From: Coriobacteriia bacterium
Lineage (GTDB): Bacteria > Actinomycetota > Coriobacteriia > Anaerosomatales > Kmv31
DNA length: 41,799 nt
Reading direction: 5' to 3'
NCBI GenBank assembly: GCA_014859305.1
Contig: JACUUM010000016.1
Span: 1 to 41,799 of the forward strand
In this document: positions 9,159 to 38,700 of the stretch, piece after piece
How the letters are laid out: every line of letters begins with the position of its first letter
How positions within the stretch are numbered: position 1 is the stretch's first letter
The notes under the pieces: model-generated
The model's input: only the letters and a program-made list of their open reading frames with translations
Database searches by the model: none
Told to the model about the DNA's origin: nothing
Program-made: the position numbers and the translations under genes

Positions 9159-9349
9159 AGCCGGATCTCTCGGCGGTGACGCTCGACGACGTCCGCAGGC
9201 GCGGGCGGCTGGTGGGCGAGCGTGCGGGGGACCTCGCGAGAGCCGTCGCGGAGACCCCTGCCGCCAGGCGTGCCGGCGTTGCCGCCGGCGTGCTCGCCGC
9301 AGCGGTCAGTACCGGCTACCTGCTCGGTTCTCGCCGCCGAAGGTCGTGA
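9155..9349 (+). CDS. Small basic single-pass protein of unknown function
   Basis: This is a 64-aa product. It begins MKPDLSAVTLDDVRRRGRLV, continues with a charged helix, and ends in one hydrophobic segment (AGVAAGVLAAAVSTGYLLG) and an Arg-rich tail (SRRRRS), suggesting an inner-membrane anchor with the positive end inside. The GTG start overlaps the upstream stop in a GTGA junction, which is the main evidence that this short frame is translated. Small helix-anchor proteins of this kind often accompany holin-X-like proteins in actinobacterial operons, as in DUF3618-type genes, but sequence similarity to that family is not evident. The next gene starts 4 nt after its stop. Confidence 0.6.
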   Translation: MKPDLSAVTLDDVRRRGRLVGERAGDLARAVAETPAARRAGVAAGVLAAAVSTGYLLGSRRRRS

Positions 9350-9353
9350 GCGG

Positions 9354-9827
9354 GTGCCCGAGGACGTCCCCCGGCCGCTGACCGTCCTGGAAGTGACGGT
9401 GACCGGGCAGCGCGCCGAGGCGCTCGTCGAGGTCCGTCCCGACGCCGCGCGCACCGGCGCGTTCCCCTCCTTCACGGCCAACCTGCTGCTGGCGCTGCCG
9501 GGCCTGGCCTCGCACGAGTGTCACAACGGGAGGGGGCGGACCTTCATCGAGGAGCTGCGCGACACCGAGACCGCTCATGCGTTCGAGCACGTCGCGCTGC
9601 AACTGATGCGGCTCGCCGGCTCCCCGGCGACCGGCGAGACGACCTGGGACTTCCAGCGAGACGGGCGAGGCCGGTACCGCGTGGCGCTCCGATTCGAGGA
9701 CGACCTGCTGTGCTTCGGCGCGTTGCGCCTTGCGGAGCAGGTGATCGCCGCGGCCGCCGGCGAGGGCGAGATGCACGTGCTCGTCGACGAGGTGGCACGG
9801 TTGCGCGGTCTCGCCGGCCAGGGGTAG
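9354..9827 (+). CDS. Stand-alone cyanophycin-synthetase N-domain-like protein
   Basis: This 157-aa soluble protein has a core that resembles the N-terminal domain of cyanophycin synthetase (CphA). Landmarks are LLLALPGLASHECHNGRGRT, FIEELRDTETAHAFEHVALQ, LMRLAGS, then YRVALRFEDDLLCFGALRLA. These correspond to the CphA pattern 'LPGL..H.C', 'GGF..RL..GT...HV.EHVALELQ' and the following 'Y.VV.EY.de..g..A...A' strand-helix. No ATP-grasp or Mur-ligase domain follows, so it cannot make polymer by itself. In CphA this domain contributes to polymer handling, so a binding or editing role for a related peptide is an inference. Start: GTG at 9354, 4 nt after the preceding gene, no strong ribosome site. 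It is the last gene of a three-gene cluster. Confidence 0.68.
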   Translation: MPEDVPRPLTVLEVTVTGQRAEALVEVRPDAARTGAFPSFTANLLLALPGLASHECHNGRGRTFIEELRDTETAHAFEHVALQLMRLAGSPATGETTWDFQRDGRGRYRVALRFEDDLLCFGALRLAEQVIAAAAGEGEMHVLVDEVARLRGLAGQG

Positions 9828-9890: not shown

Positions 9891-9920
9891 TTGACCCGCG
9901 CCGCCGCAGGGTGCTACCCT
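9891..9920 (+). promoter_or_regulatory. Promoter of the T-box/aminotransferase operon
   Basis: TTGACC (9891-9896) and TACCCT (9915-9920) are separated by 18 nt, and the -10 is extended by TGC. This places transcription start near 9926-9928, about 210 nt before the T-box sequence, as expected for a T-box leader. Confidence 0.65.
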
Positions 9921-9926
9921 CGCGGG

Positions 9927-10190
9927 CAACCAGCCTCGAAGGCTGGGCATACAGCCAGCATGGACGTGAGGGAAGAGGGCGCCATCAGCCCGGCCACCCC
10001 TCCCAGGTCCCCCGCCAGGGTCGAGCCGGAGAGGCGCGGCCGGAAGCGGGACGGCGCCGGACCGTTACCGCACCGGCCATGAGGCTCCCCCGAGGGCCGG
10101 TTCCAGCGCTGGGCCGGTCTCGCCCGGGAGCGAAGATAGGTGGTACCGCGACGGCCCCTCGCCCTATCAGGCAGGGGTCGTTCTGTTTCT
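9927..10190 (+). promoter_or_regulatory. T-box leader (tRNA-sensing riboswitch) with terminator
   Basis: The T-box sequence AGGTGGTACCGCGA (10138-10151) matches the conserved antiterminator bulge that pairs with the tRNA acceptor end. It runs straight into an intrinsic terminator: a stem using GACGGCCCCT (10150-10159) and AGGGGTCGTT (10173-10182), then the U-rich TTCTGTTTCT. Upstream, CCGTTACCG and CATGAGG around 10058-10084 look like the stem III region. T-boxes let uncharged tRNA switch on amino-acid genes. The specifier codon is not assigned: a small hairpin at 9968-10002 exposes a loop CGCCATCAG with possible GCC (Ala) or ATC (Ile) triplets, but a canonical stem I could not be drawn with confidence. 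Confidence 0.85.
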
Positions 10191-10231
10191 CGCGATTGCC
10201 GCCTGGCGCGGCGGCGGATGCGGAGGCCGAG

Positions 10232-11494
10232 ATGGGCACCTCGAGGGTCGTCTTCGACCGATGGGAAGGGCGGTACGCGTCGCGCATGGGCGACATCCGC
10301 TCCTCGGCCGTGAGGGACCTCTTCGCCGCCGCCTCGCGCCCGGACGTCATCTCCTTCTCGGGTGGCATGCCCGAGGTCCGCAAGGTACCCGGCGACGCGG
10401 TCGCGGGTGCCGTGGCCGCCGCGATGCGCGAGGACGGGGCCCAGGCGCTGCAGTACGGCTCCTCGGAAGGGCGGCCGGCGCTCCGGCGGCTGATCTCGCA
10501 GCTGATGGGCGAGACCGGCGTGCGCGTCTCGCCCGAGGACGTCGTCGTGACCGCGGGCGCCCAGCAGGGCCTCGACCTGCTGGCCAAGACGTTCCTGGAC
10601 CCCGGTGACGTCGTGCTGACCGAGGGGCCCACCTACGTCGGCGCGCTGCAGGCGTTCTCGGCGTGCCAGCCCGAGGTGCGGTGCGTGCCGATGGACGACG
10701 AGGGCATGCGGATGGACCTCCTCGCCGAGGAGCTCGATCGTCTCGGGCCGCGCGGCGCCAAGTTCGTCTACACCATCCCGAACTTCCAGAACCCGGCCGG
10801 CGTCACGATGTCGGCGCCGCGCCGCCGCCGGCTCCTGGAGCTCGCGCGCGAGTACGACGTCGTGGTCGTGGAGGACGACCCCTACGGGCGGTTGCGCTTC
10901 GAGGGCGGGCACCTGCTGCCGCTGCGCGCCCTGGACGAGGACGTGGTCTACCTCGGCACGTTCAGCAAGATCTTCGCGCCGGGGCTGCGGCTGGGCTGGA
11001 TGGCGGCACCCCGTCCGATACTCGCCAAGGTGCTGCTCACCAAGCAGGCCGCCGACCTGTGCGGGTCGGCCTTCGCGCAGACCGCGGCGGAGCGCTACTT
11101 CCTCGGCTCGAGGTGGCGCAGGACGCTGCGCGACCTCACGGACACGTACCGCGCGCGGCGCGACGCGATGCTGGCGGCGCTGGCGGAGCACTTCCCTCCC
11201 GAGGCCCGATGGACCCACCCCGAAGGCGGCTTCTTCGTGTGGGCGACCCTGCCCGAGTTCCTGGACACCACGTCGCTTCTGGCCGAGGCGGTCGAGCACG
11301 GCGTGACCTTCGTCCCGGGAGACGGCTTCTTCCCGGACGGCCGAGGACGCAACAGCATGCGTCTGGCCTTCTGCTACGCTGAGCCGGACCGCATCGAGGA
11401 GGGCATCCGGCGCTTGGCCGAGGTGCTGGAGGACCGCTTGGAGCTGTACCGGGCGTTCATGTCGGCCGGGGCGCTGACCCCCGCGACGGGGTAG
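10232..11494 (+). CDS. PLP-dependent class I/II aminotransferase (LysN/2-aminoadipate type)
   Basis: This 420-aa fold-type I aminotransferase belongs to the MocR-related, stand-alone COG1167 group that includes LysN and aromatic or 2-aminoadipate transaminases. Landmarks: ISFSGGMPEVRKVP near the N-terminus, LQYGSSEGRPALRRLI, VVVTAGAQQGLDLLAKTFLD, YTIPNFQNPAGVTMS (substrate and PLP contacts), EDDPYGRLRFEG, and GTFSKIFAPGLRLGWM, where the Lys forms the Schiff base. There is no N-terminal HTH. ATG at 10232 is chosen because GGAGG is 5 nt upstream. It is the first gene behind a T-box leader, so its expression should respond to an uncharged tRNA. ddl follows after 35 nt in the same direction. The substrate is not determined; control by a T-box suggests amino-acid synthesis rather than breakdown. 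Confidence 0.87.
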   Translation: MGTSRVVFDRWEGRYASRMGDIRSSAVRDLFAAASRPDVISFSGGMPEVRKVPGDAVAGAVAAAMREDGAQALQYGSSEGRPALRRLISQLMGETGVRVSPEDVVVTAGAQQGLDLLAKTFLDPGDVVLTEGPTYVGALQAFSACQPEVRCVPMDDEGMRMDLLAEELDRLGPRGAKFVYTIPNFQNPAGVTMSAPRRRRLLELAREYDVVVVEDDPYGRLRFEGGHLLPLRALDEDVVYLGTFSKIFAPGLRLGWMAAPRPILAKVLLTKQAADLCGSAFAQTAAERYFLGSRWRRTLRDLTDTYRARRDAMLAALAEHFPPEARWTHPEGGFFVWATLPEFLDTTSLLAEAVEHGVTFVPGDGFFPDGRGRNSMRLAFCYAEPDRIEEGIRRLAEVLEDRLELYRAFMSAGALTPATG

Positions 11495-11529
11495 CGCGGC
11501 GGCCACCGGCGCGAGGCGAGGGGGCGGAC

Positions 11530-12480
11530 GTGAAGGAGAAGATAGCGGTCCTCATGGGCGGGCGCTCGCTGGAGCGCGAGGTGTCGCTGGCCAGCGGCAG
11601 GCGCGTCGTGGCCGCGCTCACGGAGATGGGCCACAAGACGCTCGCGCTGGACGTGACGGCGGACCTGGTCGACACGCTGCGCTCGGAGCGCCCGGACGTC
11701 GTCTACATCGCCCTGCACGGCAAGTACGGCGAGGACGGGACGATCCAGGAGATCCTCGAGTTCCTCGACATCCCGTACACGGGGCCGGGCGTGACGGCCT
11801 CGGCGCTCGCCTGGGACAAGACGCTCTCCAAGCGCCTCTTCGCCCAGAACGGCATCCCGACGCCCCCCTGGGTGGCCTTCACGACCGCCGCGTTCAAGGA
11901 GATGGGAGCGGCCACGGCGCTGGATCTCGTGCCCGAGGCGGTCGGGGGTCTTCCGGTGGTGGTCAAGCCGGCGGAGCAGGGCTCGGCCCTCGGTCTGACC
12001 AGGGTCGCTGCGCCCGAGGACCTTCCCCAGGCGCTGCTGTCCGCGTTGTCCTACGGCGACAAGGCGCTGGTGGAGAAGTGGGTCGAAGGCGCGGAGCTCG
12101 CCGTGTCGGTCGTCGGCGGGACAGAGGATCGCCGCGTGCTGCCGCCGGTGGAGATAGAGGCGCACTCCGGCCTCTTCGACTTCACGGCGATGTACACGCC
12201 CGGCGAGACCGACTACTTCGTGCCGGCACGGCTGCCGGAGCCCGTGCTCGCCACCGTCGAGGAGCTGGCGCTGTCGGTGCAGCGCCTGCTCGGCTGCCGC
12301 GACGTGTGCCGCGTGGACATGGTGGTCGACCGCGAGGGGCGGCCCTGGGTGCTGGAGTGCAACACCTCTCCGGGCATGACGGAGACGTCGCTGCTCCCCA
12401 TGGCCGCCGAGGCCGCCGGCATCGGTTTCGGGGAGCTCGTGGAGCTCATGGTCCGGGCCGCGGCCGATAGGATAAAGTAG
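11530..12480 (+). CDS. ddl: D-alanine--D-alanine ligase
   Basis: Ddl joins two D-alanines with ATP to give the dipeptide used by MurF for peptidoglycan precursors. The 316-aa ATP-grasp protein shows all the family marks: VLMGGRSLEREVSLASGR (substrate loop), LHGKYGEDGTIQ, GPGVTASALAWDKTLSKRLF, VVVKPAEQGSALGLTRV (ATP-grasp lid), MYTPGETDYFVPA and WVLECNTSPGMTETSLLPMA (metal and D-Ala2 site). The length is normal for the family. GTG start with a purine-rich GAGGGGGCGG just upstream. It lies 35 nt behind the T-box-controlled aminotransferase with no terminator seen between, so it is probably under the same leader. That would link precursor synthesis to an amino-acid supply signal. Confidence 0.93.
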   Translation: MKEKIAVLMGGRSLEREVSLASGRRVVAALTEMGHKTLALDVTADLVDTLRSERPDVVYIALHGKYGEDGTIQEILEFLDIPYTGPGVTASALAWDKTLSKRLFAQNGIPTPPWVAFTTAAFKEMGAATALDLVPEAVGGLPVVVKPAEQGSALGLTRVAAPEDLPQALLSALSYGDKALVEKWVEGAELAVSVVGGTEDRRVLPPVEIEAHSGLFDFTAMYTPGETDYFVPARLPEPVLATVEELALSVQRLLGCRDVCRVDMVVDREGRPWVLECNTSPGMTETSLLPMAAEAAGIGFGELVELMVRAAADRIK

Positions 12481-22638: not shown

Positions 22639-22699
22639 GCGGGCGCGCGCTCGTGCACGCGCAGGGGACAGGGCCGCGCGGCGGCCGAGTCCCGCCCCG

Positions 22700-22872
22700 T
22701 CCCTCGTTGGAGGTTTTGGCACTGCCCGACGTAGTGCCCGCAGGCCTTGCGGCGAGCGGACCAGCCACCTTAGCCGTCGCCTTAAGCCGGCGAAAGCTGT
22801 TCTACCCATTGGCGTCTCTCGACATTTCCGGGCAGTGGCCTGTGTTCGGACAGGAGCCGCACCTTAACGGAA
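22700..22872 (-). promoter_or_regulatory. M-box (ykoK) Mg2+ riboswitch aptamer
   Basis: Read on the minus strand the sequence contains the M-box core in order: CCGTTAAGGTGCGGCTCC, CACTGCCCGGAAATGTCGAG, AGACGCCAATGGGT, CTAAGGTGGCT, and GTGCCAAAACCTCCAACG. These match the conserved segments of the ykoK leader (CGTTAGGTGAGGCTCC, CTGCCCA.AAATGTC, AGACGCCAATGGGT, TAAGGTG, AGTGC..A..CTC). M-box RNAs fold when Mg2+ binds and then allow termination, shutting off Mg2+ uptake genes. The downstream terminator and the MgtE-like and NRMT genes fit that role exactly. Confidence 0.95.
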
Positions 22873-22919
22873 AGGGCTTCTCCGTGCTGTCAACGCTCCT
22901 AGTGAACCGGAGCACGAAG

Positions 22920-35447: not shown

Positions 35448-35585
35448 CTGTCCGTAGTCCGAAGGCCAGACCCGAGAAGGCCACCCATGTCCTCCAAGGG
35501 CGGGCTTCGTGTTCTTGATGGACGATTCTGCCACGAAAGGGGAGACCTAGGTGCGGGGAACTCAGCAAGGACGCTGAGAAGCGAT

Positions 35586-35626
35586 GGTGAGCGAGGGACA
35601 AGACCCTCGCCCACCTGCTGTTTCGT
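35586..35626 (+). terminator. Terminator after prfC, possibly bidirectional
   Basis: GGTGaGCGAGGG pairs with CCCTCGCcCACC (11 bp with one mismatch) around ACAAGA, followed by TGCTGTTTCGT. On the minus strand it would also stop transcription from the tRNA gene, which ends 2 nt beyond. Confidence 0.6.
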
Positions 35627-35627
35627 A

Positions 35628-35703
35628 TGGTGCCCCCGGCAGGATTCGAACCTGCGACACCAGGTTTAGGAAACCTGTGCTCTATCCCCTGAGCTACGAG
35701 GGC
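35628..35703 (-). tRNA. tRNA-Arg (anticodon CCU)
   Basis: The 76-nt gene is read on the minus strand and folds into a full cloverleaf: acceptor GCCCTCG/CGGGGGC, D-arm with AGCTCAGGGGATAGAGC, anticodon arm CAGGT-TTCCTAA-ACCTG (anticodon CCT, reading AGG), T-arm GCAGG-TTCGAAT-CCTGC and an encoded CCA end. It lies between the prfC terminator and the SpoIIE gene, with its 3' end towards the prfC block. Confidence 0.97.
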
Positions 35704-35790
35704 GCGCCGAAGAGGCAGCCGCCATTGTACCGCGCGACGCACGGGCGGCAAGGGCGCCGCCGTGTCGAGGGCGCCCCGCCCCGCGCCCCC

Positions 35791-38700
35791 TCAGCCGGCC
35801 GGCCGCGGGCGGATCGCCAGCACCGCCAGGTCGTCGGTCAGCCGCCCTCCGCCGAAGGCGAGCACCTCGTCGGCCGCGCGGCGCACCGCCTCGGCGGCGC
35901 TCACGCCACCCATGTGGGCGAGCAGCTCGAAGAGCCGTTCCTCGCCGTAGAGCTCGCCGTCGGCCGACCGCGCCTCGATGAGCCCGTCGGTGTAGAGGAA
36001 CAGCAGGTCGTCCTCGGCCATCCCGGTCTCGGACTCCCTGAACTCGACGTCCGGCAGCGCGCCGATCAGCGGGGAGTCGGCTTCGAGCCTCTCCACCCCG
36101 CCGCGGCACACCAGCGCCGCGGTCGTGTGCCCGGCGTTGCAGTACAGGAGGCGGCCGTCGGGGCGGATCACGCCGAAGAAGACCGTCGCGAAGATCTCCG
36201 GCGGCGACCACCTGTAGAGCACGTCGTCGGCCAGGCGAAGCACCTCGGCGGGGTTCCCCTCCCTCTCGGCCGCGTGCGCGCGGATCGTGTTCTTGACCAG
36301 CGAGGTCAGCACCGCGGCGTCGATGCCCTTTCCCGAGATGTCTCCCACCGTGACGCCCACGAGCCCGTGCCCGAGCTCGAAGAGGTCGTAGAAGTCGCCG
36401 CCGACGCGCGCCATCTCGGTGGCGGAGTGGTACAGGGGCGCGAACTCGAGGCCGTGGATGCTCTCGGGCAGCGCCAGCAGGGTCTCCTGGAGCGTCTCGG
36501 AGACGTGGCGCTCGTTCTCGTAGAGGCGGGCGTTCTCGAGCGCGAGCGACACCGAGGAGGCGACCTTGCGGGCGAAGTCCACCTCGCCCTGGGAGAAGCG
36601 GTGCGGCGAGTGGTAGTTGAAGAAGAGCGCGCCCTCCACCCGCTCGCGGCGCGTCAGCGGCGCTACGACCACGGAGGGGATGTTGTAGCGCTCTTGCACC
36701 TCGCGCGAGGTGCGCGGGTCGTGCAGTGCGTCCTCCACGGCCACGGGGGCCTTCGTCGCCGCGGCGATGTCGACGAAGGGGACGTCGCGAGGCTCGAACC
36801 GCCGGCCGAGGATCTCCGCCGGCAGGTGCCATATGTGCGTCGGGACCCAGGCGCCGTCTTCCACTAGGTCCAGCGCCGAGGAGTCGCATCCGATGCTGGT
36901 GGCGGCGACCTCGAGCACCTCGGAGAAGACCTCCTCGGGGCGCAACGTGGAGTGTACCAGGTCGTCGACGAGGTTGAGGGCGTCGCCGAGGCGGGCCGCC
37001 TCCTGCGCCCGCTCGAACAGCGACGCGTTCTGCAGCCCAGTGGTGAAGGTGTCGGCCAGAGAGGCGACGAACGCGCGCTCCTCCTCGCCGAAGATGCGCG
37101 GGCGCGGCCATGCCAGGGTCAGGCTTCCGATCGTCTCCTCCTTGGCGAGCAGCGGCACCACGACCAGGGACCCGAGCTCGATGCCGTAGCGGCGGTACGC
37201 GTCGCGGACCCGGGTCGAGACGTCCGAGGTCGCGGCGTCCTCGTGCACCACCATGTTCCCCTCCCTGATCGCGCGCACGACCTCGTAGGGCTCGTCGAGG
37301 GCGACCCCGTCGGCGAAATCCTCGAAGAACGCCGGTGGGAAGCCGAGGCCGCCGACCAGAGCGAGCCGGCGGCGCCCCTGGAGCATCCACACCGACGCGG
37401 CCGTCACGCCCAGGTGCCGGATGACGGACTCGAGAGCCCGCTCGACCACGGCCTTCGAGTCGAGAGAGGAGGTCACGAGGCTGGCGACGTCGCGAAGGGT
37501 GCTCAGGCGCGCGCTGCGCTCGCGCTCGCTCTCGAACAGGCGCACGTTGTCGATGGCCACGGCGACCTGTCCGGCGAACGCGCGCAGGAGCTGGAGCGCC
37601 CGCCCGCTCTCCCGCGCGTCCTCCTCGCGGAAGGCGATCCCGAGCACCCCGAAGCGCCGGCCCTTCGAACCGAGCGGGAGCACGGCCAACGAGCGGAACC
37701 CCAGGTAGCGCGCGAGTTCACCGTCGAGCACGCACTCGTCGTGGGACGCGTCGGCTATCAGCGCCTCTTCGCCGGTGCGCATCACACGTCCGGTCGCCCC
37801 CTCGTCTGGGCTCAGGCGGAAGGACGCGAGCTCCTTGGGCACTGTCCTCCCGGGCACGTCCCAGAGGTATGGGGCCGTAGGCGCGCCTCCTTCCTCGAAC
37901 ACGTAGACCCAGACCGCGACCGGGTCGAACAGGCTGCGCGCCCCCTGGGCCACGGCGCGCTTGACGACGTCGGCCTCGGTGGCGCCGGCGAGCTCGCGTC
38001 CGACCTCTCCCAGCCGAGTCAGGCCCTCCACGTGGCTCCGGAGGCTCGTCCGGGCGTCCTCGAGCGAGCGCGCCACATCGCCGATCTCGTCGGTGCGCTC
38101 GGAACGGACCGGACGCCCCAGCTCGCCCGACCCGATGCGCCGGGCGTCGTCGGCGACGACGGTCAGCGAGCGCCGGATGCTGGAGGAGAGCAGCACGCTG
38201 GCGAGGAGCGCGAGCCCGACGACGGCTGCGGTCAGCGGCAAGCCGACCAGCAGGCTGCGGTAGAAGGGGCCGAGCGCCTCGCGGTGGGGTACGGAGGCGC
38301 CCGCGGCCCAGCCCAGCCGCTCGATGGGGACGAAGGCGGCGACGCGCTCCTCGCCCGAGGGGGTCGGCCCGGACCAGTGGCGCAGCACGACCGTCTCCCC
38401 CCGGATAGCGCTCTCCACGGACGGGTGACGCGGCGTCCAGTCCTCGAGCCGACGCGCGAGCCCGGGGTCCTCGTTCTGGAAGACGAGCCGTCCCCGGGAA
38501 TCGATGATGCTCATGCCCCCGCGCTCCATGCCGACCACGTCCTCCAGCGCCTCCGGGAGCGCTGTGACGTCGACCAGCACCATCATGACCCCGACCGTGT
38601 CACCGTCGGCGTCATCGATCCGGCGGGCCAGGTGGAAGCCGACGCCGTCGTGCTCGTGCCTCGCGCTCGGTTCGATGCCTTCGCCCGAGGCGCTTCTAAG

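Follow-up and report, generated by a model that had tools for sequence, protein, structure and literature searches.

Which signal controls a unit that combines an aminotransferase with ddl, the gene for D-alanine–D-alanine ligase? This question is raised by positions 9891–12480 of the window, i.e., the whole analysed stretch of 41,799 nt from a bacterium of the class Coriobacteriia. The gene ddl is an essential wall gene and an antibiotic target. A preliminary description had placed a promoter, a T-box sequence and a terminator upstream of a COG1167 aminotransferase and ddl, with 35 nt between the two genes. Each of these parts could be located in the sequence:

9891–9920, + strand: promoter-like pair, TTGACC (9891–9896), 18 nt, TACCCT (9915–9920)
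9928–9950, + strand: 5′ hairpin of variable sequence upstream of Stem I, CCAGCC/GGCTGG pairing (sequence and fold)
9962–10010, + strand: short Stem I of 49 nt, with GGAC/GUCC (9962–9965 with 10007–10010), GGG/CCC, a side bulge and an apical hairpin
9993–9995, + strand: proposed specifier GCC (Ala), followed by the purine A9996, identical in 27/27 leaders
10011–10050, + strand: Stem II with internal loop CAG/GGAA; outer helix 99% paired, with compensatory changes
10051–10078, + strand: Stem IIA/B pseudoknot region with F-box-like CCGTTA (10062–10067); sequence conservation, pairing by eye
10084–10131, + strand: Stem III; compensatory changes in 4/4 pairs, 88% paired
10135–10168, + strand: antiterminator with T-box bulge UGGUACC (10141–10147); 99–100% paired
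10150–10189, + strand: intrinsic terminator, hairpin 10150–10182 followed by the T-rich tail CTGTTTC
10232–11494, + strand: COG1167-type PLP aminotransferase, 420 aa, ATG start at 10232 (profile models)
11530–12480, + strand: ddl, D-alanine–D-alanine ligase, 316 aa, GTG start at 11530 (NF002378)

The end of the aminotransferase gene (11494) and the start of ddl (11530) agree with the described gap of 35 nt, and a small gap is kept throughout the host order, the Anaerosomatales. In the profile search, the best models for the aminotransferase were COG1167/MocR-type aminotransferase domains, every one of them below its cut-off, and its relatives of solved structure are broad-specificity enzymes. 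The ligase reached 339 bits against the D-Ala-D-Ala ligase family NF002378 (cut-off 243). Judged from sequence, the leader of this unit very probably acts as a T-box riboswitch responsive to tRNA-Ala(GGC), controlling the aminotransferase and ddl by termination and read-through.

The leader is a T-box that escapes the Rfam model

The check that had been suggested for this leader, the Rfam T-box covariance model RF00230, gave no support: in the leader region it reported nothing at the gathering cut-off nor at E ≤ 10. The same model did recognise T-boxes elsewhere in the host genome, three of them full-length and some partial, and independent proof was therefore needed for the leader. The gathering cut-off is strict, as the other T-boxes of the genome also score below it, and represents a detection threshold rather than a defining biological feature.

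Such proof came from the T-box core, the competing 3′ hairpins and covariation, which together bear out the T-box that had been described. The core AGGTGGTACCGCG lies at 10138–10150. It is part of an antiterminator whose 5′ arm reads GATAGG (10135–10140), TGGTACC and GCGA (10148–10151) and whose 3′ arm consists of TCGC (10159–10162) and CCTATC (10163–10168); this element and Stem III are both canonical in form. For covariation, 27 distinct leaders of the host order were aligned to a hand-drawn structure of 35 pairs in 8 helices, with the pairs of the IIA/B region left out of the count due to ambiguous alignment. Standard pairs were found in 96.1% of the cells, both sides had changed in 17 pairs, and the covariation score amounted to 0.277, compared to 0.130 after shuffling and 0.024–0.067 with partners slid. 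When the changes were placed by eye on the tree of the aminotransferase, a U-A/C-G exchange in the antiterminator fell on three or more branches and a C-G/U-A exchange in Stem II on several. The minimum-energy fold of the whole leader has a z of only –1.6 and differs from the conserved structure. On these sequence comparisons, the leader in front of the aminotransferase and ddl is assigned as a real T-box.

Stem I of this T-box is short and unusual. Its lower helix, GGAC/GUCC, varies among the leaders as GGAU/AUCC, GAAC/GUUC and AGAC/GUCU, its apical hairpin has the form GGGC-7nt-GCCC (9977–9991), and in the side bulge AAGA stands opposite (G/A)-GCC-(A/G). At the base, an invariant GUGA faces a loop with a conserved A, which resembles a K-turn, the match being a rough one. 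Neither an AGAGA/UGxRA pair nor an AGUA S-turn was found in Stem I of the aligned leaders, and the missing AGAGA/UGxRA pair indicates that the elbow-binding IDTM is absent. In Stem II, the CAG/GGAA loop is invariant among the leaders, at a place where canonical T-boxes have GAA/AGUA, and a CCGUUA/CCGGUA element resembling the IIA/B pseudoknot follows. At the site equivalent to 9928–9950, hairpins of differing sequence were seen by eye in the relatives; in most of them such a variable hairpin, often followed by CGAATA (9928–9961 in the window), precedes Stem I.

The specifier is likely an alanine codon

The position of the specifier was calibrated with the other T-boxes of the host genome, using the pattern N-XXX-R-CC. 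At the same offset, these carry TGG (trpE), ATC (ileS), TTC (pheS), CTG (ilvD) and, before a homocysteine-biosynthesis-like (HcyBio-like) gene, ATG, with gene names taken from reading the translations. Placed in this way, the specifier is likely the GCC (Ala) at 9993–9995 in the side bulge, which is followed by a purine in all 27 leaders. The host tRNA-Ala(GGC) has A73 and ends in ACCA, matching the bulge UGGU. Alanine, one of the two options left open in the preliminary description, was thus borne out, although through the triplet of the side bulge and not through the GCC of the apical loop. A glycine reading (GGC, one base earlier) was rejected; here a C follows, and tRNA-Gly with U73 ends in UCCA, which mismatches UGGU.

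The isoleucine triplet ATC, previously regarded as equally visible, did not hold up to this comparison, as it sits, together with the other GCC, in the variable apical loop (9981–9987, GCCATCA). We consider it very unlikely that the same T-box reads tRNA-Ile via AUC (9984–9986) in this loop, as class III ileS T-boxes do. Class III T-boxes indeed carry their specifier in the apical loop (PMC10482949), the ATC is followed by an A, 18 of the 27 leaders have an ATC within this loop or next to it, and the discriminator does not separate the two amino acids, since tRNA-Ile(GAU) also ends in ACCA and would fit as well. However, the apical loop varies in sequence and length in several families (e.g., CTCGC, CTTCC, GTACACG and 9-nt loops), class III is characterized by a loop of 5–6 nt without a side bulge, the host ileS has a canonical T-box with ATC of its own, and a related leader of Candidatus Aquicultor reads GCC. 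It is the position of the bulge GCC and its invariance that favour alanine over isoleucine.

The leader is spread across the host order and decays in one family

The relatives compared include Anaerosomatales and other Coriobacteriia. Of 61 sampled genomes, 55 contain a match to the aminotransferase, in most cases at 71–79% identity, and a T-box core precedes it by 73–145 nt at almost every locus examined. Genomes were also searched with a covariance model (R1) built on Stem I and Stem II, which scores the leader of the window with 82 bits. It gave one strong match (60–103 bits) per genome in 56 of the 69 sampled genomes of the host order; in genomes common to both searches this match lies directly upstream of the aminotransferase. 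Since the same leader precedes the same gene throughout the order, chance can hardly account for it.

Outside the order, R1 gave no convincing match among 177 further sampled members of the class or among 396 genomes sampled from the phylum. Two of the weak matches (G189 and G210) were checked and lie inside coding genes, and these were thus dismissed as chance. In Eggerthellales and other Actinobacteria, the neighbourhood of aminotransferase and ddl is kept without this leader. Among loci L081–L137, the two genes adjoin in e.g., Eggerthellales, Pseudonocardiales and Propionibacteriales, with no recognisable T-box.

Within the host order, the T-box is decaying in one family, represented by G006, G019 and G034 (loci L178–L180). 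In G006 the promoter is retained, as is Stem I as far as GCCACC, with the terminator following directly, and in G019 and G034 promoter and terminator alone precede the aminotransferase. In a fourth member of this family (G028, locus L046) the T-box is intact; at another locus (L073) the leader is wholly lost. Immediately 5′ of the promoter, the window encodes a small protein whose N-terminal domain is cyanophycin synthase-like (9222–9827, + strand; PF18921), and a similar coding sequence is also found upstream in G006, G019 and G034.

Control is predicted to act on transcription

All but one of the 27 aligned leaders have a promoter of the form TTGACC-17/18-TAnnnT; a sigma-70 consensus scan left the TTGACC/TACCCT pair of the window unscored. 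At the other end of the leader, the terminator hairpin was calculated at –22 kcal/mol, and a terminator scan returned one site, compared to 0.0 ± 0.2 in shuffled sequences. A strong hairpin stands at this position in all relatives and is followed by a T-rich sequence in nearly all. The terminator overlaps the 3′ arm of the antiterminator, and the two consequently compete; averaged over the leaders, they amount to about –21 and –9 kcal/mol, respectively, a difference of about 12. About 40 nt separate the terminator hairpin from the Shine-Dalgarno site 3′ of it, which the hairpin therefore does not mask. Moreover, the retention of terminators where the T-box has decayed supports a role of the 3′ hairpin as transcription terminator.

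These features also bear on two other modes of control. Where Stem I is short or intermediate, the T-boxes known so far have translation as their usual target (PMC7583486, PMC10482949), and the leader could likewise hide a ribosome-binding site instead of terminating transcription. We regard this as very unlikely, as the switching hairpin ends well ahead of the Shine-Dalgarno site, with the T-rich stretch behind it in nearly all relatives, and as the remnant of promoter and terminator persists even where the T-box is lost. An attenuator based on a leader peptide (GTG AGG GAA GAG GGC …, with GCC in frame) finds some backing in a reading frame that starts from a GTG 27 nt upstream of the GCC in most relatives. 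Yet this frame ranges from 13 to 115 codons, is broken by indels of the apical loop in several relatives and absent in some, and shows no ribosome-binding site, and the helices covary, all of which makes a leader peptide extremely improbable. A terminating T-box remains the reading that we prefer.

A class IV architecture with predicted class I output

T-boxes fall into four classes (PMC10482949). In classes I and II, Stem I is long and has the IDTM, and control is generally by transcription termination; classes III and IV lack the IDTM and are mostly translational, the examples given being ileS, for class IV that of actinobacteria (PMC10482949). In transcriptional T-boxes, the IDTM and the S-turn in Stem I are generally required (PMC7583486), and reviews link the elbow-binding IDTM to this mode, in which the time for tRNA binding ends once the polymerase arrives at the terminator. 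By its sequence features, the leader described here combines the anatomy of class IV with the predicted output of class I.

With class IV (Actinomyces odontolyticus ileS type; PMC10482949) it shares an intermediate Stem I without IDTM, the presence of Stem II and a side bulge, flanked by two helices, that holds the specifier. It differs in the amino acid (Ala, not Ile), in the genes downstream (aminotransferase and ddl, not ileS), in the terminator recognized from sequence instead of a hidden ribosome-binding site, and in the Stem II loop CAG/GGAA. With class I (B. subtilis tyrS type) and RF00230, it has in common the antiterminator/terminator switch, the UGGN-ACC bulge, Stem III and the IIA/B region with CCGUUA. 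In contrast to these, it has no IDTM, Stems I and II are both without an AGUA/GAA S-turn, and a 7-nt apical loop and an AAGA/G-GCC-A bulge take the place of a long Stem I.

A further comparison is offered by Candidatus Aquicultor (loci L112–L114), where a T-box precedes an orthologous aminotransferase and carries a GCC specifier by Rfam alignment. This leader scores 92.7 bits against the Rfam T-box model (cut-off 93) and differs in its canonical long Stem I with AGAGA, UGGAA and AGUA elements, in ddl lying about 200 nt away and in its bulge UGGC, which is not the match expected for a tRNA with A73. Whether the leader of the host order constitutes a distinct class appears evenly balanced to us; this would be a terminating tRNA-Ala T-box with a short Stem I without IDTM or canonical S-turns and a new Stem II loop, CAG/GGAA, bracing the codon-anticodon contact, which arose in the order when a canonical Ala T-box lost its distal half.

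Proposed mechanism and significance

Binding of the tRNA, the direction of control and the substrate of the aminotransferase are what we infer from these features. In the nascent leader, the GCC specifier in the side bulge of the short Stem I would pair with the anticodon of tRNA-Ala, a contact probably braced by Stem II and the IIA/B pseudoknot, which would replace the missing elbow-binding module. With uncharged tRNA, the ACCA end could pair with the bulge UGGU and thereby promote the antiterminator, allowing the polymerase to read into the aminotransferase and ddl; with charged tRNA, the more stable terminator would form. Shortage of alanine might thus lead to more aminotransferase, a possible alanine maker, and to more of the wall-precursor ligase that uses D-alanine. 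In one reading, raising ddl under these conditions could hold wall synthesis steady.

From the identity of the specifier we infer that the aminotransferase may supply alanine, which offers a functional hint for a broad-specificity family. An alanine dehydrogenase homologue is present in nearly all relatives and in most of the host order, and the aminotransferase therefore need not be the source of alanine; a role as the only one was discarded.

In the literature searched, subscription journals excepted, no T-box before a D-Ala-D-Ala ligase was found. The proposed switch would represent a control point that ties a unit containing ddl to the charging of a tRNA. A natural, order-wide T-box with a terminator and without IDTM could further serve as a direct test of the IDTM rule, and it shows that whole T-box lineages can escape the usual T-box model.

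Apart from this unit, a tRNA-Arg(CCT) at 35628–35703 (– strand) overlaps the start of a listed open reading frame (35584–36867, + strand) that matched no NCBIfam family. The window also contains a second riboswitch, an M-box (magnesium, ykoK leader) at 22693–22878 on the – strand, which scores 120.5 bits, far above the Rfam cut-off.
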